Source of the DNA: Sanyastnella coralliicola
GTDB lineage: Bacteria > Bacteroidota > Bacteroidia > Flavobacteriales_D > Sanyastnellaceae
Assembly: GCF_030845195.1 (NCBI RefSeq)
Contig: NZ_CP132543.1
Location: forward strand, 2,187,501 to 2,251,500
Reading direction: 5' to 3'
Length of the DNA stretch: 64,000 bases
Shown: positions 4,137-59,328 of the stretch, in pieces
Position numbering within the stretch: position 1 is the stretch's first letter
Layout of the letters: each line of letters starts with the position of its first letter
Notes under the pieces: model-generated
Seen by the model: the letters and a program-made list of their open reading frames with translations, nothing else
What the model was told of the DNA's origin: nothing
Database searches by the model: none
Translations under genes and position numbers: made by a program

Positions 4137-4282
4137 ATTTCTCAAGGGCGCAAATTTTTATTATGAATTTCATGTTAACAACTAGTATGCATGTATCTTC
4201 AAATTCAATTAAATACCAATAAAATCAACCCATCCGATTTCGGATTTCTGTTCATTACTTGTTGATATCGTTTTTGAGAATA

Positions 4283-7271: not shown

Positions 7272-7350
7272 ACGGTTGACGGTTGACGGTTGACGGTTGA
7301 CGGTTGACGGTTGACGGTTGACGGTTGACGGTTGACGGTTGACGGTTGAC
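7272..7350. repeat. Perfect heptamer tandem array (ACGGTTG, about 11.3 copies) in the leader of the GspK-like gene
   Basis: The 7-bp unit is repeated without a single mismatch over 79 bases. It ends five bases before the start codon (ATG at 7266-7264, minus strand). The rest of the gap to the MORN-like gene stop (7351-7402) holds nothing I recognise. It is the only heptamer array in the left half of the window and the only perfect long one, suggesting recent or ongoing expansion. Copy-number change here would alter the distance from upstream signals to the start codon but not a reading frame. Confidence 0.95.
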
Positions 7351-7402
7351 GAAAACTCAGATAAATTTGTGAACCTCGGTCAATCAAAGTCCATTCTTAT
7401 TC

Positions 7403-29700: not shown

Positions 29701-32700
29701 TATAGCCTCTCCCGGTTCAAAATATTCTATCTCTTGTTGACTGGTAATCCGTCCAGTATCAAATGCTCCAGGTGCGCCTTCTGTCGGAGGGGCTAGCGAG
29801 AAATCACCACAAGCCTCGGCGTAAGTGGTCATCGAACGCATTTGACCGTGCATGTTGTTCTTAACGAAAGAGAATCCTTGTGTTAGCCATTGATTGTTGG
29901 TGAAATAGTTCAACATACCCAACGGCAAAGGCAAATAGTCCTTTTTGGTCAAATCCAAGTTGGTCATATCGTACTGGAACGGATAATCTTTCGCTGTATA
30001 GTAACGCTGAATATTATAACCTGACCCAGTAGGACCTTCGTGTATATTCTTCACGATGACTGTGGAGTAACCAACAGCTGCTCCTGGCATAATTGATTCT
30101 CCTAATGGACCTTCGTTGTAGTCTTTGTCCACTCCACCTACTACCTTGTCAATAAAGCTCTGTTCGAATTCGTCTAAGACATTTGTCAATGGGTTCTCTT
30201 CACGAATGCTAGGCGGCTCATTTGTGGCAACTCCACTAGACTCCCAATCTCCACTGATTGGATTGATATCCTTGTAGATGTACTCTGAACCGTACAAACT
30301 AGTGTAACTTACACCATCTTCTTGAGGCGTATCTGGGTCGTACATCAGTAGACGCTTTACTCTAACACCTCCGCCTTTCTTTGCTACTGGGAGCGGAACT
30401 CTGAAATAAGACAGTTCATCATTGATTTCAAGACAAGCTTCCGCAGCAAAGGTCATTGTGCTTAAGGCTTGAACTAAACTTTGAACAGCTGATGGCCCTT
30501 CATCATCGAACTCCCCTGACACGGGGTCGCAGACCTCACCATTGTCACTTACCAGACCTCTTCGCTGAGTCTTGTAGAAATCTCTGCAGAGTCTTTTAGG
30601 AAGATGATCCTCTTCGCTACTTAATGTAATTCGTATCCGGACGTTGCCTTCGGAAGGATCCGTTAGCGTGGCGCTGGCTAATTTTGCATATCCAGATATA
30701 TACTCTGCATTACAATCTTCCAATTCAGGTGGTGCTCCTTCGCCCAGTAAACGATACAAGAACTTGAAATAGATTTTCTTTCCTCCTAAATATTCAGCGT
30801 TAATCAAATCTACCATTTCTGATATCTCATCTGCATGAGTATCCCATGTCCAACCTAAAGTTGATTCTAAGTCCAAGAAGTACTGGCTTCCGCTAAAAAT
30901 CTCATCAGGTATGGGAGTTTCAATCGAACTAGGATGGAGCGAAACCATTGCATGTGCTCGTTGATCTTGAACATAACAGTAATCATCAGCTTCATATTGA
31001 ACATGAATTTCTCCTCCGCTAGGTAAATGAATTTGCTTTAGATTCCATGCAGCCGGGTCAAAAGGGGCGGGATTCTGATCAACCCAGTTCATGTCTTTCT
31101 TCAATCTTTCTGCTCCATCAAATTGATAGTTCCCCCATGCATCAATATTGTAAGGATTATAATCTGGGTTCTGCATACCCAAAGTATAATCGTTGTAGAA
31201 GTCCGCTATTTCCTCATATGCTTCTCCTGGACCTGACTCCGGGTAATTCGGGTTTTGTGGGTACGCATAATCAAATTCGTAAGGAGCGATTTTCGCATTG
31301 TAGATGTTCTCGTTTTCAAACCAAACCCTTTTCAGAGTAAGTTTTGCCGGATTATTACCTGTTTCGCTCTGACCATTCCAAACATTTGGTGACAAACCTG
31401 TAAGTCCAGCAGAATCGTTGTATTCCTCATGATATTCAAACCGAACAGTCTTTAGTCGTTCTCCAATGCTACCGTCTTGATTTTTTACGAAAAGCTCTAT
31501 TCTGTCTAGTTTCAACAATCCATCTTCACCATACCCTTGCACTCCCTGTCCAGCGTTATCAATCGCTTCGAATCCGTCTTTTCGATCTGATGTAATGAAC
31601 AACGCCACATGCGTTTTCGTCTCGATTCTTTCTAAGTAGTAGATTTCCTTCTCACCTTCGGAAACACTGCAGATATCATCTTTGGGATCTGATAGTGAAT
31701 TGCGGTTGTAGATATAGCCCTTATATGGTGCCCTCCATTTGTACCATTCATCGCTGTCTTGATCAAGTCCTCCTGCGATTCTCTTGTATTTGAATTTAGT
31801 CCATCCCCCGAGATCATCGTCTGTAGGACCATTCATTGTCATGTCTAAATAATCAGAGGTTGTGATTTGTGTTAGGAGGTAACTTGTAGCATATGGTGTA
31901 TCACGCTCTTCCCCCATTTTCACTTCAGCCTCTTCTGGGTTATTCATGAAGATGTTATTGACTTCTCCACTGTTTAATCCCAGATCAGGTACACTGTATC
32001 CCTCAACAAGACTGTACTGCAGATCTTTTTCGTTTCGAGCGTATACCGGTAATCCATAAACATATTGAATACCAGACTCATTAACGACTGCTATTTCACC
32101 TACTTGATCAGGAACGGTACTTCTCGCGATGGCTGCATTAGAGATATTGTCTTTTTTGGTGTAAGCCTTGTAGCGAGTTGTTGGAGATAGTGCATCTCCA
32201 TTTAAATCGTCAATGGTTTCTAAGATCTCTTCATTGGTTGTATAAGTGACAAAAGAAGATTGTCCTACTCTCTCACCACCACCCAATTCTTGCAGGATGT
32301 TTGGCACACCTCCTAAGTTGTACTCTTTGATCCCAGGAATCATTTCACCTTCATTCAAAACCGCTGCATATGGTGTTTCAGGATTGTTCGATGCGTAGGT
32401 AAGTTCTCCACCTAAATCACTATTGAATCGCATGAATACCCCTTCCGGATCATCCGCACTTGCGAATTGATACCCTCCTGTTTGCCAGCCTTCAACAGTT
32501 AAATCATGATCACCTGTTCCTAGTTGAGTACCTACCCCGTTATTTGAACCTACATTTCCTTCAAAGGCGATGTTATAGATATCGGTATGATTGGATTTTT
32601 TGTTTGGACGGAAGGTTCCTACACGTGAATTGTACATTCGGAATCCCCCGCCGATGCCCTCTCCAGAAACCACGAACGCGTCTGGATTGCTAAATGGAAC

Positions 32701-33717
32701 ACCAATGGACTTATCATTTCTATTGTAAGTATTCTCCTTCTCGACATAATAATCCTGAATATCCTCACTGTTACTCACGTCCCCTGAGTACATATATCCG
32801 TACACATTCTTCTCGTCTACTTCGGTATACTCTTGTTTAGTAAATGCTCCAGAAATACTTGCACTACTTCCAATTGGTAAGGGGGTTAAGGTTCCAACCC
32901 CTTGAAAAGTGACGTTAGTGGAGGTTCCTTCATATCCATGAATTTTCTCTGAGCGCGTTGAATAATTATGTGAGTAAACTCCATATTGACTCCCCGCAAC
33001 AGTTAATGTGCTCTTTTTACTCCCTTCTTTAATCCATGAACTGATTTTTGCAGAAGCAATCGACTCTTCCTTCTCAGACGAAGCTTGAGACGATTTGTAA
33101 CGAGTATGTGCAATTCGACCAGGATTTACTGAACCGGAGAAACTTGCTTGTCCTTCAGAAAATTGAACCCCAATGCTTGATAAACCTTTATCAGATGTAA
33201 AACTCAACCCACTTGAGAATCCGTAACCAGTGTAGTTGTTGTAGCGAACCGAGGCATTTCCAGAAACAGACAGGTCAATACCAAATGTCTCTATTGGACC
33301 AGAAATCGTAGCTGAGGTTGTCTTGTTTGCCGGACGCTTATTATGATAAGTCACACTCTCACCCTTCCAATCATCTGGAAAACCGCGCTTTGATCGGTTA
33401 ATTGCCCCTGGATTCAAAGTCCAGCCAAGACCTACCCATGATGCCTCTTCTTCAGGTTGAACACCTGAATGGTAGCTCAGTGATAAGGCATAGCCTCCTC
33501 CATTCGGACCCGGGATTTGGAGCACTGGGAGGTTATATGAGAAATCTCCGGTGAACGGGTTTACCATATCTGAACTTGAGACAGGCTCGAAGCTGCTAAA
33601 TTCAGGTTGTGACGGACCACTTGTTAGTGCCAATGCCGCTGTCGGATAAAATAATTCCGAAGCAAAAAGCAAAAGCAAAAACAGTGCTTTGAGTCGAAGT
33701 GCAGCATTAATTTTCAT
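26710..33717 (-). CDS. Giant RHS-family exported protein with PFTGDFSYN N-terminal domain (2335 aa)
   Basis: The chosen ATG at 33717 overlaps the preceding stop by 11 bases and is followed at once by a signal peptide (MKINAALRLKALFLLLLF). An ATG at 33810 would add residues read out of the lipoprotein gene. At the N-terminus are NPFTGDFSYNLPVL and EASWVGLGWTLNPGAINR, found in large Bacteroidota proteins that accompany RHS proteins and resembling the SpvB/TcB side of RHS shells. The long middle is beta-rich without recognised catalytic motifs. The C-terminus ends in a YD-like stretch (TTYVYDPVNYRLLASM, LLYQYNAEGKLIRQLKETERG). It probably works with the 3529-residue RHS protein encoded next. Confidence 0.88.
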   Translation of the reverse strand: MKINAALRLKALFLLLLFASELFYPTAALALTSGPSQPEFSSFEPVSSSDMVNPFTGDFSYNLPVLQIPGPNGGGYALSLSYHSGVQPEEEASWVGLGWTLNPGAINRSKRGFPDDWKGESVTYHNKRPANKTTSATISGPIETFGIDLSVSGNASVRYNNYTGYGFSSGLSFTSDKGLSSIGVQFSEGQASFSGSVNPGRIAHTRYKSSQASSEKEESIASAKISSWIKEGSKKSTLTVAGSQYGVYSHNYSTRSEKIHGYEGTSTNVTFQGVGTLTPLPIGSSASISGAFTKQEYTEVDEKNVYGYMYSGDVSNSEDIQDYYVEKENTYNRNDKSIGVPFSNPDAFVVSGEGIGGGFRMYNSRVGTFRPNKKSNHTDIYNIAFEGNVGSNNGVGTQLGTGDHDLTVEGWQTGGYQFASADDPEGVFMRFNSDLGGELTYASNNPETPYAAVLNEGEMIPGIKEYNLGGVPNILQELGGGERVGQSSFVTYTTNEEILETIDDLNGDALSPTTRYKAYTKKDNISNAAIARSTVPDQVGEIAVVNESGIQYVYGLPVYARNEKDLQYSLVEGYSVPDLGLNSGEVNNIFMNNPEEAEVKMGEERDTPYATSYLLTQITTSDYLDMTMNGPTDDDLGGWTKFKYKRIAGGLDQDSDEWYKWRAPYKGYIYNRNSLSDPKDDICSVSEGEKEIYYLERIETKTHVALFITSDRKDGFEAIDNAGQGVQGYGEDGLLKLDRIELFVKNQDGSIGERLKTVRFEYHEEYNDSAGLTGLSPNVWNGQSETGNNPAKLTLKRVWFENENIYNAKIAPYEFDYAYPQNPNYPESGPGEAYEEIADFYNDYTLGMQNPDYNPYNIDAWGNYQFDGAERLKKDMNWVDQNPAPFDPAAWNLKQIHLPSGGEIHVQYEADDYCYVQDQRAHAMVSLHPSSIETPIPDEIFSGSQYFLDLESTLGWTWDTHADEISEMVDLINAEYLGGKKIYFKFLYRLLGEGAPPELEDCNAEYISGYAKLASATLTDPSEGNVRIRITLSSEEDHLPKRLCRDFYKTQRRGLVSDNGEVCDPVSGEFDDEGPSAVQSLVQALSTMTFAAEACLEINDELSYFRVPLPVAKKGGGVRVKRLLMYDPDTPQEDGVSYTSLYGSEYIYKDINPISGDWESSGVATNEPPSIREENPLTNVLDEFEQSFIDKVVGGVDKDYNEGPLGESIMPGAAVGYSTVIVKNIHEGPTGSGYNIQRYYTAKDYPFQYDMTNLDLTKKDYLPLPLGMLNYFTNNQWLTQGFSFVKNNMHGQMRSMTTYAEACGDFSLAPPTEGAPGAFDTGRITSQQEIEYFEPGEAIPIWKGFNFEGYVENDYGTFDNIEMQYPGREVDVIMESKQIRDITNDVSVEADISFGTPLIPFATVVPELTYKESELYLHKTTKVIQYPVIAKKSTTFTEGVYHVTENVGFDELTGRTIVSRTTDGFVGKTMPDGTPAGTYTSYSIPAHFEYNATKQKSIAEGKFIVAATEGVTISKTVDEEGAILQFFDDADVAGTPDLCALMDNFNSGDLLVVGDMIFNTISVDGNTLHISPSFVHNGVNGSSIPDLAGIEILRSGRSNQIAMGIGNVTTYGEAKLNSFPNAEVAARQGLADLLNASLPLIPNEGDKTTISTSQVSSYDLISPFNGTCGPLSEYEMTVGVDQFTIPEDIHLERLADRIRISVGGLEDQWLSTEICGDNENRALSVQHLNNALPQLWNFTSAGLSVYESTSFHIDFPGVGDVLVFPYSFVTTDEDGYFASMNAAFAAQAAVDFSDCTYEIIPNITFFPLGQINGVSRVIYVKPEGQTEYQLRSLRGAYGGEVIVQMAQYIGPNPSGSEVGYVESYSPSCIQNFEATPSSDQEMIGDYGQSEEGYITLTPSHSSCDFQVFESNVMIERSPQTIQPACYHDIALSGTSGEFAIDQETGLLIYTDGGMCFDQEISCPQFCNTEFGGKGITNVVSCSATTISDNWNPELNPLAADYSYNEVELGKKGKWRGHGTYAYNTDAVASLEEDFNPATAESRNYNTGLFDMNYFVWGEGEGEGSQGPWLNLSNLTNYSSQGQAVEERNILGIEGVTKFGYHENLPVLSAQNANENNTIFCSYEMLYGTEHLENGIKTNPQLERSNFKSHTGEYSARLINSSQGAFISNMFMDDHIGQEGLLAKVWVSSDVVDDLVLADNFKMILRPEGSTTLQAGEYGFKKVARSGEWVLLEAYLPPLENIGLSSFDIYLYMNYGNTGATSCFIDDLRIQPRDGAMTTYVYDPVNYRLLASMDDQNFALLYQYNAEGKLIRQLKETERGTKTLQESHYNTPKVAR

Positions 33718-34291
33718 AAGTCTCAATTTTAGACAGCAAGTGCTGGATATCTTCTTGTTTGAAAACCACTTTATTCGTTCCAGTGTGGAAGATTTCATCG
33801 TGGAAGACAAATGTTAAATCGTCGTTATTCGACAGAATATGCGGGGGAAACACAGTTTGCATGGCTATTTCTTTCGAAAGACCATGGGTATTCTCGGTAT
33901 GAGTCATCAATGGTTCGATCTCTCCTTCAGAAGTGACGATCTCCACTAATTCTCCGATGTAAAAATTCACCTCATTGATTCGAGCCTTCCAATCCTGTTC
34001 GCTGTTGACATTGTGTGTCAATAAATCACGAGACGAACCTCCATTCCTAGGACTGAGGGTCCAAGAAAATGCCACTTGATTCAATTCCCCTGTTTCTTCG
34101 TTGATAGATGGAATCATGGTCACATCCATATTCATGATCGGTGTCTCTTTCAGCTTTCGCATTCCGTGAGACTCCGACTTACAGAATGACTCTATCTGAG
34201 TATTCGTATTCAAGTTTTCCACGCTAGTGCAGGAAACTAACACGACCAACAAGTAGAAGACTGTAAGATTAAAGGCCTTCATACGATTCAT
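33707..34291 (-). CDS. Small lipoprotein of unknown function
   Basis: 194 residues with a lipoprotein signal (hydrophobic stretch ending VLVSC, Cys at about 21). An ATG three codons in is also possible. The mature part has no family I recognise; it contains several Asn- and Glu-rich loops and one further Cys. The gene overlaps the OmpH-like gene upstream by 23 bases and the giant RHS-family gene downstream by 11 bases, so it is translated together with them. A lipid-anchored helper for the giant proteins is plausible but unproven. Confidence 0.72.
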   Translation of the reverse strand: MNRMKAFNLTVFYLLVVLVSCTSVENLNTNTQIESFCKSESHGMRKLKETPIMNMDVTMIPSINEETGELNQVAFSWTLSPRNGGSSRDLLTHNVNSEQDWKARINEVNFYIGELVEIVTSEGEIEPLMTHTENTHGLSKEIAMQTVFPPHILSNNDDLTFVFHDEIFHTGTNKVVFKQEDIQHLLSKIETYEN

Positions 34292-37492: not shown

Positions 37493-38168
37493 GTTACAAA
37501 AGTTTTAGTCGCACCTAAGGCGCGGTAGTTAAAACGCTGGATGAAAGTTTTGGCAATACAATCCTACCACCCGTACAAGGCGTTTTTAAGTTAAATCTGA
37601 GCACGAGGCATCAGAAATCTATGTGGGGATTCGAAAATCCAATTAGCAAGTAACAGTTGAAATGAAATCGAGGAAATGATGAACAATCACACACCTCGCG
37701 AAGGCAAATCGCAAATTTTCATATCACTGGTTATCAATGTACTTAACAACTTAAAAGGAAATTCTCCAAAGGCAAAAAGGAGGTCTTTCATAGTTGTAGG
37801 CAGTAGTAATGTGATGTATAGTTACGAAGGAATTCTCCTACTTCCAAATCCCAATCCGGGAAAAATATCAAGTGTAAAGAAGACACCAAGACGCACATTT
37901 AGGTTTCCAAGCCCTACTATTCAAGGGTTTAACGGATTTACACTGTCAACTTTTTCTCAAGTTCCAAATGGATCTTTACTCTAAGCTTAACTTAACCAAG
38001 CGGTCGCAGTCTTCATTGTCCGACTGTTTGGTTGGAATTTGCTTCGTGGATTTAAATGTGGAGAGTTCGGTTTCCGGCGTCCTGCATCCAGTGTCTGTTT
38101 TCTTTTTGCTCTCCTTCCTCCGCCAACTGTCTGCAGTCCGCTGACCAACATAAAACTAGTCCCCTAAT
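37493..38168. other. Gene-poor region upstream of the giant operon
   Basis: No confident gene is visible. A plus-strand frame at 37676-37984 (102 codons, AGGAAATG at the start) is possible, but its basic, proline-rich product resembles nothing I know; I give it about one chance in four. At 37994-38033 an inverted repeat (AACCAAgCgGTCG and its near-complement ending GTTTGGTT) follows that frame and could be a terminator or structured RNA. A degenerate heptamer stretch related to CGGCGTC is at 38074-38094. A small hairpin GGATT-CGAA-AATCC is at 37627-37640. Confidence 0.35.
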
Positions 38169-38390
38169 TTCACAATCGTGTTTGTCGATTGCTCGTTCAC
38201 AATGACATTTTCGAATTCTGATTTCACAATCGTTTTTTCTAATGCCGTGTTCACAATGGCTTTTTCGAAATGCAATTTCACAATCATGTTTTGAGAATGC
38301 GTGTTCACAATGGTGTTTTCGAGTTGTCGTTTCACAATCGTTTTTTCAGAAGAACTGTTCACATTCGTGATTTTGGATTATTGGTTCACT
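38169..38390. repeat. 27-bp tandem repeat array A (about 8 units)
   Basis: Units starting with TTCACAAT begin at 38169, 38196, 38223, 38250, 38277, 38304, 38331, 38358 and (partial) 38385, exactly 27 bases apart. Alternate units differ: one type reads TTCACAATCG, the next TTCACAATGG or TTCACAATGA followed by a TTTTCG, giving a 54-base higher order. Some units contain an inverted repeat CAATCG...CGATTG. The stop codon of the lipoprotein gene at 38386 lies in the last unit. A minus-strand frame stays open because 27 is a multiple of three (9-residue repeat around E..TIVK/IVN). Confidence 0.93.
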
Positions 38391-39555: not shown

Positions 39556-39600
39556 AAGGTTTACTTTGCTTTCCGTCTGCCTTCTACATTTCCGCCTTAT

Positions 39601-39780
39601 TTCACAATCGCGTGTTTCGATTGCCCGTTCACAACGGTATTTCCGCATTCTGAATTCACAATCATGTTTTCAGAAGGCTTGTTCACAATGGTGTTTTCGA
39701 GTTGTCGTTTCACAATTGCTTTTCCGAATTCCAATTTCACAATCGTGTTTTACGATTGCATGTTCACAATGACATTTTCG
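39601..39780. repeat. 27-bp tandem repeat array B (7 units)
   Basis: TTCACAAT-type units begin at 39601, 39628, 39655, 39682, 39709, 39736 and 39763, again exactly 27 bases apart and alternating between two types. The 35 bases from 39682 are identical to those from 38304 in array A, so the arrays share a recent origin. Two units hold CAATCG...CGATTG inverted repeats (39606-39623 and 39741-39757). Read in the same minus-strand frame as array A it is broken by a stop codon, so I do not treat it as coding. Confidence 0.93.
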
Positions 39781-39862
39781 CGAACGTTTTGGGGTTTGGA
39801 CGGATGTTATCCGTCCCTCTCAGTGTTTTTCGGTATCAGCGCTTATAAAAAAGCCATCATCG

Positions 39863-40015: not shown

Positions 40016-41362
40016 ATGGATCAGTTCAGACCGAAGAAAAAGAAGAAGAAGAATAAGCCACGTCCTGGTCAAGGAGGAGGTAAGCCGCAAGGCGGAAACT
40101 CAAAGGGCGGTAAACCTCATGGGACGAACTCAAAAGGCGGTAAACCTAAGAAAAGGCGACCTCAAGGGGGCAACGCCAAGGGCGGTAAACCGCAAGGTAG
40201 AGGACCTCAAGGAGGAAAAGGACAGCCGAAGAAGAGAGGGAGAAGAAAATCTGATATAGATCCTAGCCTATTGGTAAAGAAGGCAAAGCCTGTTGAAATC
40301 AAGGAGTATGTTCCTGAACGAAAGATTTCAGAAATGCCGATTAGTGAGGTGCTGAAATCGAGTCTAGCGACGAAGGGGTTTGAAGTACCTACTGAAATTC
40401 AAGATCGGACATTGGAGTTTTTGCTCGAGCGAAAGAACCTTCTGGGAATCGCTCAGACAGGAACGGGTAAGACCGGAGCTTTCTTGATTCCGATTATCGA
40501 ACACATTCTGGAACGAAAGCAGCGTTCATATGCGCTGATCTTAGTTCCCACAAGAGAACTCGCAATTCAGGTGCGTGATGAGTTCCAAAGCATGAGTAAA
40601 GGGTTAAACCTGCACAGTGCTTGCTTTATCGGTGGGACAAACATCAACCGAGATCTCTACGAATGCCGACGTGAAAGTCACATCGTCATTGCGACTCCGG
40701 GAAGACTGCTCGATTTGATTCAACGGAGAGCTCTTAAGGTGTTCCGATTCAATACGCTTGTCTTGGATGAATTCGACCGCATGCTTGATATGGGGTTTGT
40801 GCACGATGTGAACCGCATTATTCAAGCGATGGAGCGCAGAGAACACACGCTCCTATTCTCAGCAACGCTTGATGATAGACAGCGAGACCTCATCGACGAA
40901 TACCTAGGTCTGGACTACGAAATGGTGAAGGTGGCTACAGGCACCAGCTCAAGCGAGAACGTCGACCAAGAGGTCATCTACATGAAGCCAAATGAGGATA
41001 AGTTCATTGTCCTGAAACAAATGCTTGAAGATGAAAGCTTTGACAAGGTGTTGATTTTCGAAGAAACCAAACACCGTGTGAAGCGCCTGTGTGCAAGACT
41101 AAACAAGTCCGGCATCAAGTCTGACGAAATACACGGAAACAAAAGCCAGAATGCCCGTCAGAATGCACTCAAAGCCTTCAAACAAGGAAAGGTGCGTGTT
41201 CTTGTAGCCACAGACGTTGCCGCCCGAGGTATCGATGTCGATGGTGTCAGCCACGTCATCAACTACCAACTTCCTTTAACTATGGACAGCTATATCCATC
41301 GAATTGGTCGTACGGGTAGAGCTGGGAAGGTTGGGAAGGCGTTTACTTTCGTTGAAGCTTAA
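40016..41362 (+). CDS. DEAD-box family ATP-dependent RNA helicase (DEFD variant)
   Basis: 448 residues from the ATG at 40016 (MDQFRPKKKKKKNK). An in-frame ATG at 39953 lies on the promoter element and was rejected. The first about 80 residues are Lys/Gly/Arg-rich with about 10-residue repeats of GGKPQGGNSK type, likely an RNA-binding tail. The helicase core has motif Q, motif I AQTGTGKT, Ia PTRELA, Ib TPGRLLDL, motif II DEFD in place of DEAD, III SAT, V ATDVAARGIDV and VI HRIGRTGRAG. It resembles the RhlE/DeaD type used in RNA unwinding, ribosome assembly or cold growth. Monocistronic: its own promoter element upstream and a hairpin terminator directly after. Confidence 0.93.
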   Translation: MDQFRPKKKKKKNKPRPGQGGGKPQGGNSKGGKPHGTNSKGGKPKKRRPQGGNAKGGKPQGRGPQGGKGQPKKRGRRKSDIDPSLLVKKAKPVEIKEYVPERKISEMPISEVLKSSLATKGFEVPTEIQDRTLEFLLERKNLLGIAQTGTGKTGAFLIPIIEHILERKQRSYALILVPTRELAIQVRDEFQSMSKGLNLHSACFIGGTNINRDLYECRRESHIVIATPGRLLDLIQRRALKVFRFNTLVLDEFDRMLDMGFVHDVNRIIQAMERREHTLLFSATLDDRQRDLIDEYLGLDYEMVKVATGTSSSENVDQEVIYMKPNEDKFIVLKQMLEDESFDKVLIFEETKHRVKRLCARLNKSGIKSDEIHGNKSQNARQNALKAFKQGKVRVLVATDVAARGIDVDGVSHVINYQLPLTMDSYIHRIGRTGRAGKVGKAFTFVEA

Positions 41363-41413
41363 GCCTCATGGCTCAAGGCTTAAGGCCTAAGGCTTATGGC
41401 TTATGGCCTTTTT
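41361..41413 (+). terminator. Heptamer-built hairpin terminator after the helicase gene
   Basis: Seven units of the AAGGCTT/ATGGCTT family start on the helicase stop codon. The arms AAGGCC (41382) and GGCCTT (41405-41410) pair, and T-runs follow (TTTTTG, then nine T after TTTAGA). This is the form of an intrinsic terminator made from the repeat family. Confidence 0.6.
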
Positions 41414-42632: not shown

Positions 42633-42790
42633 GTAGACCGTGGACGGTGGACGGTGGACGGTGGACGGTGGACGGTGGACGGTGGACGGTGGACCGTTTG
42701 AATAATAAATAATGATTCGTGAATACTGAAAAGTAAATTCTAGGCTTAACCTCCAATTCATTATTTACGATTCATTAATCATTAATTATT
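42633..42790. repeat. Heptamer arrays: GTGGACG family, then AT-rich ATTCATT family as inverted repeat
   Basis: About nine GTGGACG units (42633-42695) run in register into AT-rich heptamers (TAATAAA, TAATGAT, TCGTGAA, to about 42730). A second block ATTCATT-ATTTACG-ATTCATT-AATCATT-AATTATT follows at 42756-42790, roughly complementary to the first AT-rich block, so a long hairpin can form. The gap 42581-42935 otherwise holds a small hairpin CCCAAA-CGAA-TTTGGG at 42870-42885 and no gene. Confidence 0.88.
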
Positions 42791-44512: not shown

Positions 44513-44525
44513 GGGTGGTCTTACT

Positions 44526-44726
44526 CCGGCGTCCGGCATCCGGCGTCCGGCCATTGCAGCTCACATCTCAACCATACTTATCCGTCAACCGTCCACTGTC
44601 CACCGTCTACTTTTCCGGCGTCCGGCGTCCGGCGTCCGGCGTCTGTTAGTTATCGTTTATAGATTATAGACTATCGATTAGAGTCTCTAGACTCTTGTCG
44701 CTCGTCTCTAGACTATTATCTCTTCT
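44526..44726. repeat. Composite heptamer array (CGGCGTC, GTCCACC, TTATAGA and CTCTAGA families)
   Basis: Starts with three to four CGGCGTC units (44526-44552). CCGTCAA-CCGTCCA-CTGTCCA-CCGTCTA follow at 44582-44609, then four CCGGCGT units from 44615. Without losing the 7-base register these pass into CTGTTAG, TTATCGT, TTATAGA, TTATAGA, CTATCGA, TTAGAGT, CTCTAGA, CTCTTGT, CGCTCGT, CTCTAGA, CTATTAT, CTCTTCT. Nearly the whole gap between the sigma factor and the J-domain gene is made of it. Confidence 0.9.
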
Positions 44727-44729
44727 CCC

Positions 44730-44737
44730 TACCTTAG
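44730..44737 (+). promoter_or_regulatory. Possible promoter -7 element TACCTTAG for the J-domain gene
   Basis: One mismatch to TAnnTTTG, 28 bases before the start codon and four bases after the heptamer array ends. The same octamer precedes the gene at 53159. No -33 TTG is seen. Confidence 0.35.
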
Positions 44738-44764
44738 TCTCGACGCTAAGCCACTTCCAACATA

Positions 44765-45796
44765 ATGATCGATAAGTACTGTAGTATTCTTGGTGTAGAG
44801 AAAACGGCTTCTTTGGAGGAGATTAAAAAGGCCTATCGCAAGAAAGCTCGTCAATTGCACCCCGATGTGAATAAAAGTCCGGATGCGCATGATCAGTTTA
44901 TTCTTCTGAATGAAGCGTACGAGTACCTTCAAAACTACAAGACAGGTAAGACTTACAACACAAAAAAGCACGGCTACGCTAAAGCAGGTCAACGATACAA
45001 GTCATACGAAGAATGGAAGCGCAATGAACGTGAACGCGCACGGAGACGAGCTCAGGAGCATGCGAGAATGCAGTATGAGGCTTTCACCAAGACAGAATTC
45101 TACAAAACAACGGAGGCACTCGACGTTCTTGCGGATTTCTTCAACCTGCTTTTTGTTTTGTTCATCTTCATTGGTTGTCCACTGATTGGGTACACTTACA
45201 AGGGCGTTGGCGGACTCATAGCAGGAATTGTTATGATTTTTCTGACTGTCCACTTCTGGGCAGATGTGGTCTACAACAACCGTCCGGATTTCAATTTGAA
45301 AGAACTCTGGGCCTCCATAGTGCATCTGGCAGAAGTCAAGCGAATTCAACTGGCCGTGCTCCTTTTCATCAACATTGTCCTATTATTCATTTACGGCTTT
45401 AACACCCTTATCTCCTTAGGCGCCCTTGCTGCACTTTTCGCTCTTGCGTTAACCGCTGGATTTATTGTAGGCACCCAGCTCAACAAATCCTTCCACAAAC
45501 GTCTTATTCTATTCGGCATCGCTCCGGGGATTATCAATCTTGTTCTCTTATTCAATTACCACGCAAGCTCCAATGAAACCGCCGAGACGTATTCTTTCAA
45601 GCGCAAAAAAGAACTATCCGAAGACGGCGTAGAAAACACCACACTCATCATCCTCGAAGGAAACAAGTATTCAGAGTACATGCCTATGCGGTTCTTCCTT
45701 GAAGAAGACTCCTTAAGATGGCATCGAAAAATCACCTACAACATTGCGGAGGGGCCGATTGGTTTGAGGGTGGTTAAGTCATATGAGTTTGACTGA
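44765..45796 (+). CDS. Membrane protein with N-terminal J-domain (DnaJ family)
   Basis: 343 residues. The J-domain occupies about 1-65 with the HPD motif intact (LHPDVNKSPD) and the final helix FILLNEAYEYLQN, so it should stimulate an Hsp70. A charged helix region (about 75-115) leads to several membrane segments: about 120-165 (two), 195-240 (two) and 247-265. The C-terminal about 70 residues are soluble and unrecognised. It probably recruits DnaK to the inner membrane. It stands alone between two heptamer arrays. Confidence 0.85.
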   Translation: MIDKYCSILGVEKTASLEEIKKAYRKKARQLHPDVNKSPDAHDQFILLNEAYEYLQNYKTGKTYNTKKHGYAKAGQRYKSYEEWKRNERERARRRAQEHARMQYEAFTKTEFYKTTEALDVLADFFNLLFVLFIFIGCPLIGYTYKGVGGLIAGIVMIFLTVHFWADVVYNNRPDFNLKELWASIVHLAEVKRIQLAVLLFINIVLLFIYGFNTLISLGALAALFALALTAGFIVGTQLNKSFHKRLILFGIAPGIINLVLLFNYHASSNETAETYSFKRKKELSEDGVENTTLIILEGNKYSEYMPMRFFLEEDSLRWHRKITYNIAEGPIGLRVVKSYEFD

Positions 45797-45801
45797 CTGT
45801 T

Positions 45802-45881
45802 CCGGCGTCTGTTAGTTATCGTTTATAGATTATAGACTATCGATTAGAGTCTCTAGGCTCTTGTCGTTCGTCTCTCGTCTC
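45802..45881. repeat. Heptamer array copy (CGGCGT-CTGTTAG-TTATCGT-TTATAGA type)
   Basis: Near-identical copy of the second half of the array at 44636-44712: CCGGCGT, CTGTTAG, TTATCGT, TTATAGA twice, CTATCGA, TTAGAGT, CTCTAGG, CTCTTGT, CGTTCGT, CTCTCGT. It fills the whole gap between the convergent J-domain and selO stop codons. Confidence 0.9.
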
Positions 45882-47315
45882 CTAAGTCCCACAAAAGGTT
45901 TGATACCCCTCATCCACCCCCACGGGCAGCTCCTGCGGTGTTAGCCTTTCATTATACGGATCAGCCAGCGCCTTTAATAGATCGTGAAACGGATTCATGT
46001 CTCCCTTGACAGCGGCCACTAGGGCTTCTTCGACCAAGTGATTTCGAGGGATGACCATAGGATTGGTGGCTATCATGAGCGCTTCACTTTCCTCTAGGTT
46101 TGAAAGTCGGACGCGTGCTTTTTCCCATTGGATGTGCCATGCGTTGAAGTCTGTGTCCTCTCTTAGCACCTGAATGAGGGAACCGTTCGTTCTTAACTCA
46201 GTGAAGAAGTTGGTGTAGTCGACCTTGTGCTTTTGGAGGAGACGAAGGCAGTCTTCGACCAGACTGGCGTCTTCTTGCATGTGGTTTTGAATACCCAGTT
46301 TATCAGTCATCATCTTGAGGTATGACTTCGAGAACAGCTGCGGGAACTTCCCTAAGACCTCTTCAGCTTTGGATACTGCAACTTTTTCGTCTTCATCGAT
46401 CAATGGAAGCAAGGCATTCGCGAAGATTTTGAGGTTCCAGAACGCAATGTTCGGTTGGTTCGCAAAGGCATATCGGCCATTACGGTCAATGGAACTAAAC
46501 ACCGTTTGCGGATGATACACGTTCATAAACGCACACGGACCATAGTCGATGGTTTCCCCAGCAATCGAGACGTTGTCTGTATTCATGACCCCGTGAATGA
46601 ATCCCACACGAAGCCAATGGTTGATCAATTCGCTTTGCTGCTGCATCACTTTCTGAAGAAGAGCCAAGGCTAAATTATCCTCGCTAACCAACAATGGATA
46701 ATGTCTCTTGATGGTATACTCCAAGAGCTTTTCTGAATCCTTTTCACCTCCTAGGTAGCGCGCATACTCGAAGGTGCCTACTCGAATGTGGCTGGCAGCT
46801 ACACGAGATAAGATTCCTCCATCATGAATGTGCTCGCGGTAAACGTCCTCCCCTGTCTTCACCACCGACAAGCTTCTCGTCGTAGAGATCCCGAGCGCAT
46901 GCATCGCTTCACTCATGAGGTACTCACGCAACATCGAATAGAGTGTAGCCCTTCCATCTCCCCTTCTTGAATATGGCGTTTGTCCGGAACCTTTCAGCTG
47001 AAGATCATACAGTCCATTATCAGTTTGAATCTCTCCCAAGAGCACCGCACGTCCATCACCAAGACGATTGAAGTGAGCGAATTGATGTCCTGCATATGCC
47101 TGTGAGATCGGCCTACTCCCTTCCATCAACTCATTCCCCGCAAGAATTAACGCCGCTTTCGATTCATCCGCGAAGGTCTCTTCTACGCCTAGCTCTTTCG
47201 CCAATTCACCATTGAAAACCACCATTTCAGGCTTCGCTACCGAGATTGGGATTTGAGCAGTGAAAAGAGTTGGTGGTAGGTTTTCGAGGTAGGTGTTTTT
47301 TAAGGCTTTAGGCAT
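45882..47315 (-). CDS. selO: Protein adenylyltransferase SelO (YdiU family pseudokinase)
   Basis: 477 residues, normal for the family. Family motifs: SQAYAGHQFAHFNRLGDGRAVLLGE, LKGSGQTPYSRRGDGRATLYSMLREYLMSEAMHALGI (shown in parts), SVVKTGEDVYRE, and the metal-binding HGVMNTDNVSIAGETIDYGPCAFM. It ends TFCGT. SelO transfers AMP from ATP to protein Ser/Thr/Tyr residues and is linked to redox stress responses. The start codon and first residues MPKAL are coded by a heptamer repeat (47301-47335), so the N-terminus may have been acquired from it or the true start may differ. Single gene, convergent with the J-domain gene. Confidence 0.95.
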   Translation of the reverse strand: MPKALKNTYLENLPPTLFTAQIPISVAKPEMVVFNGELAKELGVEETFADESKAALILAGNELMEGSRPISQAYAGHQFAHFNRLGDGRAVLLGEIQTDNGLYDLQLKGSGQTPYSRRGDGRATLYSMLREYLMSEAMHALGISTTRSLSVVKTGEDVYREHIHDGGILSRVAASHIRVGTFEYARYLGGEKDSEKLLEYTIKRHYPLLVSEDNLALALLQKVMQQQSELINHWLRVGFIHGVMNTDNVSIAGETIDYGPCAFMNVYHPQTVFSSIDRNGRYAFANQPNIAFWNLKIFANALLPLIDEDEKVAVSKAEEVLGKFPQLFSKSYLKMMTDKLGIQNHMQEDASLVEDCLRLLQKHKVDYTNFFTELRTNGSLIQVLREDTDFNAWHIQWEKARVRLSNLEESEALMIATNPMVIPRNHLVEEALVAAVKGDMNPFHDLLKALADPYNERLTPQELPVGVDEGYQTFCGT

Positions 47316-47335
47316 TAGGCGTTGGGCGTTAGAGG
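47301..47335. repeat. Heptamer array overlapping the selO start codon
   Basis: TAAGGCT-TTAGGCA-TTAGGCG-TTGGGCG-TTAGAGG, five units of the AAGGCTT family in one register. The selO ATG (47315-47313, minus strand) and the next codons lie inside it. Confidence 0.75.
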
Positions 47336-47366
47336 GGCCTTCGCAAAGGTCGGGAAAAAGATAGCA

Positions 47367-47627
47367 CCGGCGTCCGGCATCCGGCGTCCGTTTTTCTACT
47401 TGATGATTTACTCACGACCACCCGTCAACCGTCTACTAATCCGGCATCCGGCGTCCGGCGTCCGGCGTCGGTTAATTATCGTTTATAGATTCTAGACTAT
47501 CGTTTGAGTCTCTAGACCCTCGTCCCTCGACCGGCGTCCGGCGTCCGGCGTCCGGCGTCCGTTGTTATCGTTTATAGATTATAGATCATCGATTACAGTC
47601 CCTCGACCCTTGTCTCTCGACCGTAGC
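47367..47627. repeat. Composite heptamer arrays upstream of selO
   Basis: CGGCGTC units at 47367-47390. Then CCGTCAA-CCGTCTA (47422-47435), four CCGGC(A/G)T units (47441-47468), and the TTATCGT-TTATAGA-TTCTAGA block. Four more CCGGCGT units follow (47531-47558), then a second TTATCGT-TTATAGA block to 47627. The same order of families is thus present twice in a row and resembles 44582-44726. It fills the 316-base gap between selO and the Kazal-type gene; no other feature is seen there. Confidence 0.9.
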
Positions 47628-52887: not shown

Positions 52888-53079
52888 GCGTAGACGGTAG
52901 GCTGTATGCTGTAAGCGGTAGACGGTGGACGGTGGACAGTGGACGATGGACAGTGGACAGTGGACAGTGGACAGTGGACAATCTAATCATGCTAACCGCC
53001 ATTGGCGGACTAATCATGCTCACCCTCCTATTCTGCACCAATCTCCTTAAGCCATAAGCCTTAAGCCTTAGGCCTATAG
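52888..53079. repeat. Heptamer arrays (CGGTGGA/CAGTGGA and AAGCCTT families) around a palindrome
   Basis: Fourteen units from 52888 to 52985 in one register (GCGTAGA, CGGTAGG, CTGTATG, CTGTAAG, CGGTAGA, CGGTGGA twice, then CAGTGGA types). At 52983 and 53010 a direct repeat CTAATCATGCT flanks the perfect palindrome CCGCCA-T-TGGCGG. A second array CCTTAAG-CCATAAG-CCTTAAG-CCTTAGG-CCTATAG lies at 53045-53079. The gap 52788-53158 has no gene. Confidence 0.88.
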
Positions 53080-56216: not shown

Positions 56217-57551
56217 ATGAATGTTCATTTTATCGCCATTGGCGGAAGCGCTATGCACAACCTTGCGCTCGCCCTTGCACACCAAGGAGACACTGTAACC
56301 GGATCAGACGATGAGATCTTTGAGCCATCGCGTTCACGATTAGCAGATGCGGGAATTCTTCCATCTGAATTCGGCTGGTTCCCTGAGAAGATTCATGAAG
56401 GCCTTGATGCGATTATCCTCGGTATGCATGCGCGTGAAGACAACCCTGAACTCTTGAAAGCAAAAGAGCTCGGTTTGAACATTTATTCCTACCCAGAATA
56501 CCTTTACCAAAGAACACGCTCCAAGAAACGTGCTGTCATCGGCGGTAGCCATGGAAAGACCACCATCACTTCAATGGTGCTACATGCCTTGAACTACAAC
56601 AAGGTTGATCACGATTACATGGTTGGGGCATTGCTAGACGGATTCGAACGCAGTGTGCTCTTGAAAGATGAAACACCAATCGCCGTTTTCGAAGGAGACG
56701 AATACCTCTCCTCTCCTATTGATCGTCGTCCGAAATTTCACCTGTACAACCCGCACGTGGCCCTCATCAGCGGTATCGCATGGGATCACATGAACGTATT
56801 TCCGACTTTCGATAATTATGTTGAACAGTTCCGCATCTACGTTTCGAAAATCGAAGACGGGGGTGTCTTGATCTACAACGCAGAAGACGAAGAAGTGGCG
56901 AAGGTGGCGAAGACTGCCCGTGAAGGCATCCGCGTCTTGCCTTATCACACTCCAAGCTATCGTATTGATGATGGCAAGACCTTCCTAAAACTCGAGCATG
57001 GAGAAATTCCTATCCAGGTCTTTGGAAAGCACAACCTTCAAAATATGGAAGGAGCTCGATTGGTGTGCGCCGAACTGGGTGTTTCCACCGCAGAATTCTA
57101 CGAAGCAATGCAGCATTTCCGAGGCGCTAGCCGAAGATTAGAGAAAATGCATGAAGAAGATGGCTACGTCGTTTATCGCGATTTTGCACACGCTCCAAGC
57201 AAGCTAAGGGCGACCACCTCGGCAGTAAAAGAAATGTACCCCAACAGGCATTTGTTGGCGTGTATGGAACTCCACACCTTCTCAAGCCTCAACAAAGACT
57301 TCCTTCATCACTACGAAGGCGCCATGAACGCTGCCGATACTGCCCTCGTCTATTTCTCACCAGATGTAGTAGCCCACAAGCGCCTTCCTGAAATTACAAT
57401 TGAAGATGTTTCTCAGGCCTTCGGCCGGAACGACTTAAAAGTCTTCACAAACGCCCAAGAAATGCAAGCCTTTATCGAATCTCAAGAAAAAGCAAACAGT
57501 GTTCGTTTGCTGATGAGTTCTGGGAATTGGGGAGGGGCAACTCTTTTTTAG
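56217..57551 (+). CDS. mpl: UDP-N-acetylmuramate:tripeptide ligase (Mpl) for peptidoglycan recycling
   Basis: 444 residues from the ATG at 56217 (MNVHFIAIGGSAMHN); a TTG at 56187 also fits but adds an unlikely leader. Mur-ligase features: N-terminal Rossmann loop with GGSAMHNLA, P-loop GGSHGKTTITSMV, central FEGDEYLSSPIDRRPKF and SGIAWDHMNVFPTFDNY, and C-terminal DFAHAPSKLRATTSAV and ELHTFSSLN. The DE.... and DH.N motifs distinguish Mpl from MurC. The enzyme attaches recovered L-Ala-gamma-D-Glu-meso-Dap to UDP-MurNAc in the cytoplasm. Single gene ending at a heptamer inverted repeat. Confidence 0.92.
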   Translation: MNVHFIAIGGSAMHNLALALAHQGDTVTGSDDEIFEPSRSRLADAGILPSEFGWFPEKIHEGLDAIILGMHAREDNPELLKAKELGLNIYSYPEYLYQRTRSKKRAVIGGSHGKTTITSMVLHALNYNKVDHDYMVGALLDGFERSVLLKDETPIAVFEGDEYLSSPIDRRPKFHLYNPHVALISGIAWDHMNVFPTFDNYVEQFRIYVSKIEDGGVLIYNAEDEEVAKVAKTAREGIRVLPYHTPSYRIDDGKTFLKLEHGEIPIQVFGKHNLQNMEGARLVCAELGVSTAEFYEAMQHFRGASRRLEKMHEEDGYVVYRDFAHAPSKLRATTSAVKEMYPNRHLLACMELHTFSSLNKDFLHHYEGAMNAADTALVYFSPDVVAHKRLPEITIEDVSQAFGRNDLKVFTNAQEMQAFIESQEKANSVRLLMSSGNWGGATLF

Positions 57552-57618
57552 GCTTATGGCCTATGGCTTAAGGCGTAAGTTGGATTGCTTAAGCCATACG
57601 CCTTAAGCCTTAAGCCTA
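57549..57618. terminator. Heptamer inverted repeat between convergent genes, likely bidirectional terminator
   Basis: Ten units in one register: TAGGCTT, ATGGCCT, ATGGCTT, AAGGCGT, AAGTTGG | ATTGCTT, AAGCCAT, ACGCCTT, AAGCCTT, AAGCCTA. The first half is the near-complement of the second, so a stem of about 30 bases forms. The first triplet TAG is the mpl stop codon, and the array ends two bases before the stop of the opposite gene. Confidence 0.65.
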
Positions 57619-57620
57619 GT

Positions 57621-58327
57621 TCAAAGGAATTTCCGCATTCCCAACTCAAACCCGATTTGGTAAACTACCATTTCACCTTCTATGAAGTTGTTGTGAATGC
57701 GTCTATGGGCAATTGGTTGGAAGAACATGGTACGTTCATTCGAAAAATCTACCTCTAGTCCAAAAGAACCAAAGAGATCTACGTAGGACCGTTCGAAATA
57801 ACGGAAGTTTTTCAAAGCATTTCCTGTAGCCCAGGTGTTTTCGACTCCACGCCTCATATCAATGCCGAAGAAATATCCATAGGCCATTCCTCCATTCTCC
57901 AAAAATGGCCTGAAGCTACTTTTCCCGAATGTATAACGCATTGCCAGCGGTATCTCAATGCCCGTTAGTTGATTATACCATTGCTGCCTCCCTTGAAATT
58001 CAAAAAGATATTGCCTTCAGCATCTTGGCCGTTATCTGAGTACCAATCGCTAGAGATCAACTGTCCAGAATTGATAAATCGCATCCCCGTTTTTACAGCA
58101 CAGCTCTTGGTCAAATGGATATTCAAATTGGCCCCAAATCGATAGAAAAAAAACAAGGACCGGCTATCAGTGTCTGGCCAACCCGCAGGAGAAGAACTTG
58201 AATAAATCGATCGTGGATAGGTATCCATGTGAGTATATCCCACTATCCAATCATGAGAAATACGTTGTTGACTATTCACCGCCACAGAAAGCAACAGCAA
58301 CAATCCCAAAGTGAAGGCAATTCGCAT
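57621..58327 (-). pseudogene. Outer-membrane beta-barrel protein, frameshifted copy
   Basis: A signal peptide (MRIAFTLGLLLLLSVAVNS) and about 110 residues are read from 58327. The frame then breaks and stops at 57965. The second half continues in another frame (EFQGRQQWYN, GIEIPLAMRYTFGKSSFRPF ... YQIGFELGMRKFL) to 57621. Adding one base to the A-run at 58002-58006 restores a protein of about 235 residues that aligns along its whole length with the 239-residue paralogue at 58458-59177. It may be a true pseudogene, a phase-variable gene (short homopolymer), or a sequencing error. Confidence 0.78.
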
Positions 58328-58386
58328 GGTAATGGTTTTGGTTGTAAGTAAGACGGGGGGGGTAGGTGGAAGGTTACTCTTTTACT

Positions 58387-58456
58387 GAGGCTTAGGGCAT
58401 AAGGCTTAAGGCGTAAGCTAGTCTACTTAGGCCTTAGGCCTTAGGCCATAAGCCTG
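58387..58456. repeat. Heptamer inverted repeat between the two barrel genes
   Basis: GAGGCTT, AGGGCAT, AAGGCTT, AAGGCGT, AAGCTAG | TCTACTT, AGGCCTT, AGGCCTT, AGGCCAT, AAGCCTG: ten units, halves complementary. It starts after the upstream region of the frameshifted gene and ends one base before the stop codon of the intact gene, so it probably terminates the latter. Confidence 0.75.
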
Positions 58457-58457
58457 T

Positions 58458-59177
58458 TCATATGATTTTCCTCCAACCAAACTCCACTCCCAACAAATAA
58501 GAGTACCTCGAGTCTCTTAAATTCAAAGCAGAAAGGGTGCGTGTTTGAAAGAAGGGTTGGAAGAACAAGGCTCTGCCACTTTCTAGACTGATATCCATCC
58601 CTACAGAACCGAAGTAATCTACCGTAGCGAAATTGTACGACGGAGTTCCGTCGATGAAAAGGCTGCCGAAACGACTTGAATTCTCTACTCCACTTCTACG
58701 ACTGTAATTCACTAGCATGAGATTTCCGGTAAGACCTAGTTCTGTAAAGAACTTCACTTTGTTACCGTTGGTTACAAAGCGCACGGCCAAAGGAACTTGA
58801 AATCCGGTTTCTTGATATAGGTTTCGCTGCGATCCGGCCAGTTCGAATTGGACATAGCTACTAGTATCATTCGTCTGGATAACTTCAAAAACGTCATAAA
58901 CAGCCCGTCTTAGTTGATTGTCTATCCGTAAACCAGTTTTTAGAATGACATGGTCATTCAGCGAATAGTTGACATTTACCCCGAATCGATAATTCATTCG
59001 CACAACCTGCACATCTTCAAAAGAATATTGGAAGATAAATCCCGAAGATCCTTCATTGCGTTCATGAAGGTACCCTTGATCAGCTATTCCTAAGATAAGA
59101 TCGTAACTAAACTTTGATTGCGCTTTCACCGCCACAGAAAGCAACAGCAACAATCCCAATGAGAAGGCAATTCGCAT
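58458..59177 (-). CDS. Outer-membrane beta-barrel protein (PorT-like family)
   Basis: 239 residues with a signal peptide (MRIAFSLGLLLLLSVAVKA). The mature part has about eight to ten amphipathic strands (VRMNYRFGVNVNYSL, VILKTGLRIDNQ, FQVPLAVRFVTNGNKVKFFTELGLTGNL in parts) and ends in ..LLGVEFGWRKII, as in small Bacteroidota porin-like barrels. About 60 bases before its start are nearly the same as those before the frameshifted copy (58328-58385), showing tandem duplication that included the leader. No binding partner or transported substance is suggested. Confidence 0.82.
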   Translation of the reverse strand: MRIAFSLGLLLLLSVAVKAQSKFSYDLILGIADQGYLHERNEGSSGFIFQYSFEDVQVVRMNYRFGVNVNYSLNDHVILKTGLRIDNQLRRAVYDVFEVIQTNDTSSYVQFELAGSQRNLYQETGFQVPLAVRFVTNGNKVKFFTELGLTGNLMLVNYSRRSGVENSSRFGSLFIDGTPSYNFATVDYFGSVGMDISLESGRALFFQPFFQTRTLSALNLRDSRYSYLLGVEFGWRKII

Positions 59178-59232
59178 GGTAATGGTTTTGGTTATAGGTA
59201 AGACGGGGGGTAAGGTGGAAGGTTGCTCTTTA

Positions 59233-59328
59233 TTAAGGCTTATGGCCTAAGGCCTATGGCGTAAGTTAGGTTGCTTAAGCCTTAGGCCTTAGGCCTTAGG
59301 CCATACGCCTTAGCTAGGCAAAGCCTAG
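59233..59328. terminator. Heptamer inverted repeat plus short palindrome after the ZIP transporter gene
   Basis: Eleven AAGGCTT/TAAGCCT-type units (59233-59310), the left half complementary to the right. Then comes the perfect palindrome CTAGGC-AAA-GCCTAG (59314-59328), which overlaps the transporter stop codon (59325-59327). Both could end transcription of the regulator-transporter operon. Confidence 0.55.

Follow-up and report, generated by a model that had tools for sequence, protein, structure and literature searches.

How can several heptamer word families come to lie in one continuous 7-base register, and why does their order recur? The question is raised by three stretches, 44615-44726, 45802-45881 and 47441-47627, of a 64,000-nucleotide window of Sanyastnella coralliicola (2.19-2.25 Mb of the 4.10-Mb single-contig genome). 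In these stretches CGGCGTC units pass into TTATCG-type and then CTCTAG-type words, and together they hold four copies of the same composite, named c1 to c4, of which c3 and c4 stand in tandem. The initial annotation attributed the pattern either to templated copying of whole composite cassettes or to stepwise change of a single array. As argued below, the stretches are probably mosaic heptanucleotide tandem repeats of a known intergenic kind of simple sequence repeat (SSR), namely the long SSR (LSSR) or short tandemly repeated repetitive (STRR) sequences, vertically inherited in the genus and reshaped by slippage and local copying. Cyanobacterial STRR are heptanucleotide repeats of the LSSR kind. 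The composites and the arrays next to them are the following, G048 being a congener and sister species.

44525-44551, forward strand: short CGGCGTC/CGGCATC array upstream of c1; G048 has an array at the matching place
44582-44611, forward strand: CAACCGT/CCACTGT/CCACCGT array (GTGGACN family on the reverse strand), in front of c1
44614-44726, forward strand: composite c1, CGGCGTC x4, TTATCG/TTATAG words, then CTCTAG/CTCTTG words, in a single register
45802-45881, forward strand: composite c2, CGGCGTC x1 and the words of c1; c1-c2 core identical at 64/66 bases
47367-47389, forward strand: short CGGCGTC/CGGCATC array; matching place in G048 too
47421-47436, forward strand: short CAACCGT array
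47441-47530, forward strand: composite c3, first tandem copy
47531-47627, forward strand: composite c4, second tandem copy; G048 likewise has two tandem copies

The word path in c1-c4 runs from CGGCGTC through TTATCG/TTATAG words to CTCTAG/CTCTCG words, and its register is broken by single-base slips alone. Read in one phase, c1 consists of CGGCGTC x4, TGTTAGT, TATCGTT, TATAGAT, TATAGAC, TATCGAT, TAGAGTC, TCTAGAC, TCTTGTC, GCTCGTC, TCTAGAC, TATTATC and TCTTCTC; c2 starts with a single CGGCGTC at 45802 and continues with words identical in order to those of c1. The stretch 47441-47627 consists of a unit of about 90 bp present twice in tandem (Tandem Repeats Finder: period 90, 2.0 copies, 85% matches). 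Each copy has one single-base slip, which precedes GAGTC in the first (47441) and falls within the CGTTG junction in the second (47531). The distance from the last CGGC(G/A)TC-type unit to TTATCG was 6 bases in six of seven copies from both species and 5 in the other, with AAGCGTC accepted as a unit of this type in one G048 copy. At lag 7 the three stretches had self-identities of 0.67, 0.60 and 0.63, compared with 0.27, 0.28 and 0.26 on average after shuffling. For each of seven stretches, all 1000 dinucleotide shuffles stayed below the value observed. In four of the seven, with the CGGCGTC units mostly removed, the value was still 0.53-0.63. Lags 6 and 8 were under the shuffle mean and lag 9 was slightly up (0.28-0.40). 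These results confirmed that the heptamers share one 7-base register and that their order recurs, as had been claimed, three to four times. The heptamers that had been named are drifting words without sharp boundaries between families.

The pattern is not confined to the window. In 20 evenly spaced 20-kb stretches (400 kb; one run of N counted once at each period), 56 segments had period 7, compared with one to eight for every other period from 2 to 24 apart from the multiples of 7 (28 at period 14 and 21 at period 21); shuffles gave none. Period-7 arrays occupied 28, 24 and 6.5% of the intergenic DNA of three regions and 0.4, 0.4 and 0.05% of their coding DNA, the intergenic fractions being approximate because genes were called as longest open reading frames (ORFs). 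A total of 142 arrays were found in 984 kb. Their density is regional, mostly high at about 1.85-3.3 Mb and low in most sampled stretches elsewhere. An effect of the replication origin or terminus on this clustering was considered and found no support (in the sampled stretches the skew flips at about 3.63 and 1.2 Mb, and dnaA lies at 1.98 Mb). About ten word families, counted by eye, coexist and grade into each other within the same register, and at one locus (L207:4893) the word changes gradually from GTTATTG to GTTATAG, ATTATCG, ATTCTAG and ACCCTCG. The arrays have the features of heptanucleotide SSR and LSSR, i.e., tandem 7-base units beyond chance, mainly intergenic, with whole-unit length changes. 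A search of the same genome with a 104-base composite returned 68 matches, of which four were long and lay in the window, and one, elsewhere, was weak (93/104 bases, 72% identity).

The words were also sought in other organisms. Exact GTGGACN x3 occurs at 225 places in the S. coralliicola genome (overlaps counted) and in 4 of 394 other genomes drawn from the phylum, belonging to four families; since the backward control was found in 5 of 395, the motif is no commoner than the control outside its own genome. Loci with GTGGACN x3 were seen in G338 (L292), G137 (L294) and G433 (L295). A scan of genome contigs for CGGCGTC x3 yielded at least 118 stretches and was uninformative on the window array; among the matches listed, most came from organisms of high G+C content. 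A plasmid search gave two records, matching only about 30 bases of CGGCGTC.

Comparison with G048 indicated that the arrays are inherited. The exact 14-mer TTATCGTTTATAGA is present in 3 of 114 family genomes, at 12 places in S. coralliicola, 12 in G048 and one in a third genome, the last being no more than was seen with the backward control (found in two genomes). Alignments to G048 cover 97, 90 and 351 kb of three S. coralliicola regions at 91-92% identity, and for the portion of the window surrounding the composites the figure is 91%. An array partner was found at the matching place for 39 of 44 anchored S. coralliicola arrays and for all 42 anchored G048 arrays (81/86 in total), and four of the five partnerless arrays, inspected directly, resemble homologues under the threshold. 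A further 70 arrays lacked an anchor, 60 of them from S. coralliicola (an inflated count, because region A was compared twice), and 5 were excluded as rearranged. The idea that copies move between strains found no support for the arrays: besides this sharing, no clean empty site with a target duplication, as expected of a miniature inverted-repeat transposable element (MITE), was seen in the 86 anchored comparisons. Of the interspecies gaps of at least 4 bases, 27/54 in arrays and 5/50 elsewhere were multiples of 7 (24/43 and 4/29 when multiples of 3 were excluded). Substitutions amounted to 378/2744 (13.8%) in arrays and 39035/486274 (8.0%) elsewhere, an excess that is partly alignment error. 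The shared sites, the 7-base gaps and the high substitution level together indicate that the arrays are old, inherited and fast-changing, largely by whole units. Between the protein adenylyltransferase gene selO and a gene for a type IX secretion system (T9SS) protein (47441-47627), each of the two tandem composites of G048 has one CGGCGTC-type unit, compared with four in S. coralliicola.

Phase and word order were then compared with those of loci outside the window. At 42 such loci, selected for two TTATCG/TTATAG-type words, the bases depended on phase beyond the anchor words (chi-square p 5e-114 downstream and 6e-43 upstream), the nearest part of this signal being partly a product of the selection by words. 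At a handful of loci read by eye, phase was kept across continuous heptamers but mostly lost over non-repetitive spacers. Relative to the TTATCG words of 45 loci, CTCTAG-type words were found only downstream in 18, only upstream in 2, on both sides in 1 and on neither in 24. The corresponding numbers were 8, 1, 0 and 12 for the evenly sampled and contiguous stretches alone (21 loci), and 6, 1, 0 and 11 in G048 (18 loci). The words upstream of TTATCG vary (GGCnTTA, GTTnTTG, CGTGGTT, GGAACGC, CGGCGTC and others), and 15 of the 45 loci had none of nine patterns. The junction is therefore a local trait: its constancy, proposed as a check in the initial annotation, holds for CGGCGTC-to-TTATCG in the window cluster and its G048 counterpart, but not elsewhere.

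Copying of arrays appeared to be local. Similarity between the 142 arrays fell with distance, from 0.210 below 1 kb to 0.129 at 1-3 kb and 0.090 at 3-10 kb, and then to 0.064, 0.057, 0.064 and 0.049 in further bins, the last beyond 500 kb. The value of the 1-3 kb pairs compares with a null of 0.058, or 0.081 when arrays were permuted within 500 kb, and was reached in 0 of 2000 permutations in each case. Eleven pairs at 1-20 kb had a similarity above 0.45. Among these, the 1-2 kb pairs in aligned DNA were c1/c2, which enclose a DnaJ-domain gene, and a pair around 57617-59233, both flanking segments absent from G048; three more 1-2 kb pairs lie in the region outside the G048 comparison. Neighbouring words within arrays, compared by eye, often differ by one or two bases, in step. 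Both proposed origins consequently hold in part. Templated copying of composites is suggested by the near identity of c1 and c2, by the tandem c3/c4 arrangement common to G048 and by the decay of similarity with distance; stepwise change of a single array is suggested by the 7-base multiples, which make up half of the in-array gaps of 4 bases or more, and by the small steps between neighbouring words.

These observations can be joined in a simple scheme. Arrays grow and shrink mostly by entire 7-base units, and their register is thereby preserved. New words would arise within an array by point mutation and then be expanded by slippage, which would account for several apparent families in one phase and for gradual word change such as that at L207:4893. 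Now and then a whole composite is duplicated or copied to a place close by, as the c3/c4 and c1/c2 pairs and the decay over a few kb illustrate, and the simplest route would be homologous recombination or gene conversion between arrays. The copies may then act as homology through which an intervening gene is gained or lost, as suggested by one clear and two less clear loci.

The clear case is the place between a sigma-factor-like gene and selO, where c1 and c2 bracket a gene:

44765-45796, forward strand: DnaJ-domain gene, 343 residues (N-terminal domain, PF00226, E 3e-18), between c1 and c2; absent from G048
45882-47315, reverse strand: SelO (protein adenylyltransferase) gene (PF02696, E 1e-113), right-hand neighbour; the G048 protein is 93% identical

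Read directly, the G048 locus has a single composite and no gene; the sequence on its left corresponds to that left of c1, and the sequence on its right to that right of c2. Presence or absence of one gene between the two neighbours is the gene-content pattern of a minimal mobile element. In the family protein search (113 other genomes) 16 genomes matched the DnaJ protein at E <=1e-20, none above 42% identity. No match was found in G048, G047 matched the N-terminal DnaJ region only, and among the matches listed, full-length ones (25-27% identity) came from G001 and G002, of another genus. The shared core of c1 and c2 is identical at 64/66 positions (97%). Compared with the G048 composite at this place, c1 matches at 47/60 (78%) and c2 at 48/59 (81%); compared with the G048 c3/c4-type copy that is nearer in length, the values are 57/64 and 54/63, and the maximum to any G048 copy is 89%. 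From these sequences, the DnaJ gene was probably gained after the species split, with a second composite copy, through recombination at the array. The converse, that two old composites recombined in the G048 lineage and the gene was thereby deleted, is possible but rather unlikely. Repeat-mediated deletion is common, and the G048 composite has the left and right flanks expected of a deletion hybrid. Against loss, c1 and c2 are closer to each other than either is to any G048 copy, although gene conversion between the two could have the same effect, and the distribution of the DnaJ matches listed, with none in G048 and full-length ones in the other genus alone, also argues for gain in S. coralliicola.

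Two more segments found only in S. coralliicola, 57617-59233 and 81318-86995 (coordinates above 64000 continue past the window in the joined region A), have similar heptamer hairpins on both sides where G048 has one hairpin. The borders of the first are:

57540-57625, forward strand: GGCTTAT...ATAAGCC heptamer hairpin, at the left edge of the 1.6-kb segment that G048 lacks
59234-59313, forward strand: corresponding heptamer hairpin, at the right edge; RNA fold z -6.6

In addition, a 0.96-kb G048 segment parts the arms of one heptamer hairpin, and S. coralliicola 141277-141954 and G048 C7 3421-4274 have differing sequence between similar composites. The repeated homology of 44-70 bp at three junctions suggests incorporation by homologous recombination. 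Changes of at least 300 bases affected 11/85 intergenic regions with arrays and 18/339 without (424 in total; Fisher p 0.027; p 0.035 in a permutation stratified by region and length). This test used 35 events from 39 listed rows: five rows were dropped (an array-length change with fewer than 300 non-repeat bases, the counterpart of a counted exchange, two paralogue chain artefacts and one further chain artefact), and the last of these was replaced by the 57617-59233 event. Six of the 35 events fell outside the intergenic regions used, and the 5.7-kb event was scored as array-free because the G048 hairpin was under threshold. The enrichment of gene gain and loss at arrays is marginal, a lead and not a result. 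A stronger proposal is that composites are working gene-cassette borders in the genus: recombination between in-register arrays would add, remove or swap a gene together with one composite, while the drifting heptamers keep many docking sites alive. We regard it as improbable.

Several observations weigh against the account given above. Slippage and local copying leave the order of TTATCG before CTCTAG (18 against 2 of 45 loci) unexplained unless an ancestral composite was dispersed, and such dispersal was not observed. Looser six-base anchors showed no order, with TTATCG-type words upstream of CTCTAG-type words in 35/64 and the reverse in 29/64; their offsets peaked at 0 and 4, and those of nearest-pair loci outside the window were nearly uniform over the seven offsets. 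This pairwise test was too noisy and was superseded by the stricter anchors, which select true TTATCG arrays. Beyond 3 kb (3-20 kb) the excess of similarity is borderline when arrays are permuted within 500 kb (101/2000). That c1 and c2 are nearer to the c3/c4-type copies of G048 than to the copy at their own place would mean that positions were mixed by copying or that this G048 copy diverged fast. The border copies of the two hairpin-bracketed segments have a similarity of 0.85, compared with 0.83 and 0.83 to the G048 copy, and of 0.72, compared with 0.78 and 0.83. Being hardly or no closer to each other than to G048, they leave the DnaJ locus as the only place where a recent duplication was seen. 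With respect to gene content, no border is within 60 bases of an array in 24 of the 39 listed changes, which include in-gene and paralogue changes. The enrichment is driven by region A (8/38 versus 3/60, p 0.02), where the loci from which the test arose are located, and it was not significant in region B (1/27 versus 2/65) or region C (2/20 versus 13/214).

Another explanation of the register is selection, with arrays serving as gene-end RNA hairpins, as terminators or as binding sites read by a protein at 7-base intervals. Among gene pairs separated by at least 30 bases, arrays preferred the convergent (28/57) over the tandem (50/236) and divergent (11/92) arrangements, but neutral repeats would avoid divergent promoters too. 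RNA folding predicted strong hairpins for two inverted arrays (z -6.6 and -4.0) and for the reverse strand of c1 (z -3.65), whereas c1 in the forward direction is predicted to fold little better than shuffles (z -1.74). The faster divergence of shared arrays, part of which is alignment error, and their sparseness over large parts of the chromosome also argue against constraint, and we consider selection for function doubtful as the source of the register.

Insertion of the composite as a unit, in the manner of a MITE or of a REPIN (a hairpin-forming pair of repetitive extragenic palindromic, REP, sequences), is very improbable: there are many dispersed partial matches to the 104-base composite, a protein matching the Y1 transposase family PF01797 in all three genomes of the genus (weakly in S. 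coralliicola) and, about 3.6 kb from a G048 composite, one array site that carries a REP-type transposase along with REP palindromes, but almost all anchored arrays are shared without a clean empty site, inspection by eye showed no fixed ends, a match to most of the composite occurs at just one place beyond the window, the upstream partner varies, and the palindromes differ in sequence from the composite. REP are palindromes associated with a transposase. They resemble the heptamer arrays in being dispersed intergenic repeats in the same genus; in contrast, the composite is a directional tandem array, not a palindromic REP unit linked to a gene for a REP-associated tyrosine transposase (RAYT), and no empty sites were seen for the arrays. 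No match to the RAYT-like gene of G048 was placed at the composite locus of S. coralliicola, whose own PF01797 protein is encoded at 0.26 Mb. The PF01797 count is a lower bound, as the RAYT-like gene of G048:C44, which has no Pfam match, was missing from the search results.

Related elements were noticed nearby. In G048, L219:4010-4522 (amid 3509-5039) encodes a protein like a REP-associated tyrosine transposase (NF047646, E 3e-14, 53 bits against a cut-off of 80; no Pfam match). The gene lies among GGACGGAT..ATCCGTCC palindromes and stands at the place of window array 41357-41409. A REP-like palindrome of the same type, GGACGGATGTTATCCGTCC, occurs at window positions 39798-39819. At G048:C7 4834-4925 and the right end of L219 there is a short inverted-repeat element ending in GACCCGTCCTAAAAAAAGTTGACAG, probably an insertion sequence relic or a MITE, which is absent from the S. 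coralliicola place matching C7 4834.

Known repeats share many of these features. Heptamers were the commonest class of longer prokaryotic repeats in most genomes of an earlier survey, and the idea has been raised that 7 bases is the length interacting with the polymerase (PMC4679880). Like the heptanucleotide LSSR covered there and in PMC4692102, the arrays have a 7-base unit, are intergenic, number many per genome, change length between species and are scattered; unlike LSSR and STRR, about ten word families merge here in one register with a repeated order. TAACTGA repeats are known from Beggiatoaceae, Cyanobacteria and five Bacteroidetes (MacGregor 2015, PMC4679880). They too are intergenic, occur in Bacteroidetes and are found mixed with other heptamers, have 7-base indels between relatives and have a suggested role in gene rearrangement. 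They differ in being one fixed word, placed mostly just before start codons in the main species, and a register crossing families, as seen in the S. coralliicola arrays, is not described among the passages on TAACTGA in that article. The GGGAATC and GGGGA(C/T)T repeats of Xanthomonas and Nostoc (Rehm 2015, PMC4692102) are likewise intergenic, rare between divergent genes, single or in inverted pairs, and shared by related species with varying length. According to the same source they tend to four G-tracts and occupy places more stable than average, whereas our arrays tend weakly toward changing gene content. Direct reading found no GGG tract in the composite repeat units, i.e., not the four G-tracts of a G-quadruplex. 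Minimal mobile elements of Neisseria resemble the DnaJ locus in carrying differing whole-gene cassettes between two conserved genes, exchanged by homologous recombination; they are defined by the conserved flanking genes, while the border homology here is a repeat composite (PMC3082526). Among the titles listed, in a literature search covering few subscription journals, none dealt with mosaics in which several heptamer families share a register. The window arrays are a rich variant of a known repeat kind, not a new kind.

Further arrays in the window are:

7272-7351, forward strand: ACGGTTG x11 array
41357-41409, forward strand: GCTTAAG array; G048 has a 1.5-kb REP/transposase segment at this place
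42636-42694, forward strand: GACGGTG x8 array
52921-52980, forward strand: GACAGTG/GACGGTG array

A "3+1+2+1" rule for the variable positions of the heptamers was tried and dropped: distance 3 was found in 24 of 44 unambiguous S. coralliicola arrays (p <0.0001 to 0.034 for 4-7 units), but these arrays share families and the rule was derived from them, and it was not reproduced in G048 (p 0.11-0.74). The sole Rfam match on a hairpin array, to a microRNA family, scored far under the gathering threshold and was taken as chance. An integron-like logic was considered as a possibility, because GTTAGGC words resemble an integron core site. Tandem units of about 110-210 bp with heptamer arrays and stem-loops (CCGCTAAAGGACC..GGTCCTTTAGCGG; TCGCCGAAGGCGA) were seen by eye at L210:18080-19330 and L209:14240-14700. 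The window also has non-heptamer tandem repeats of 27, 54 and 108 bases (TTCACAATCGTGTTTTCG type) at 38165-38389 and 39599-39779, and, on the minus strand at 15428-26017 and 26710-33810, ORFs of 3529 and 2366 residues, the first with a PKD-like domain and the second without a Pfam match. A domain search found T9SS sorting domains among the window proteins, consistent with the Bacteroidota lineage.

Why bacterial tandem repeats so often have 7-base units, and whether they have any role, is an open question in the field. With many word families in step and a close sister species, the birth of words, slippage, local copying and gene capture become directly measurable in S. coralliicola, and the DnaJ locus offers a concrete picture, with and without the gene, of a repeat composite bracketing it. 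The main value of these arrays is as a readable case of heptamer words arising, spreading and perhaps docking genes.

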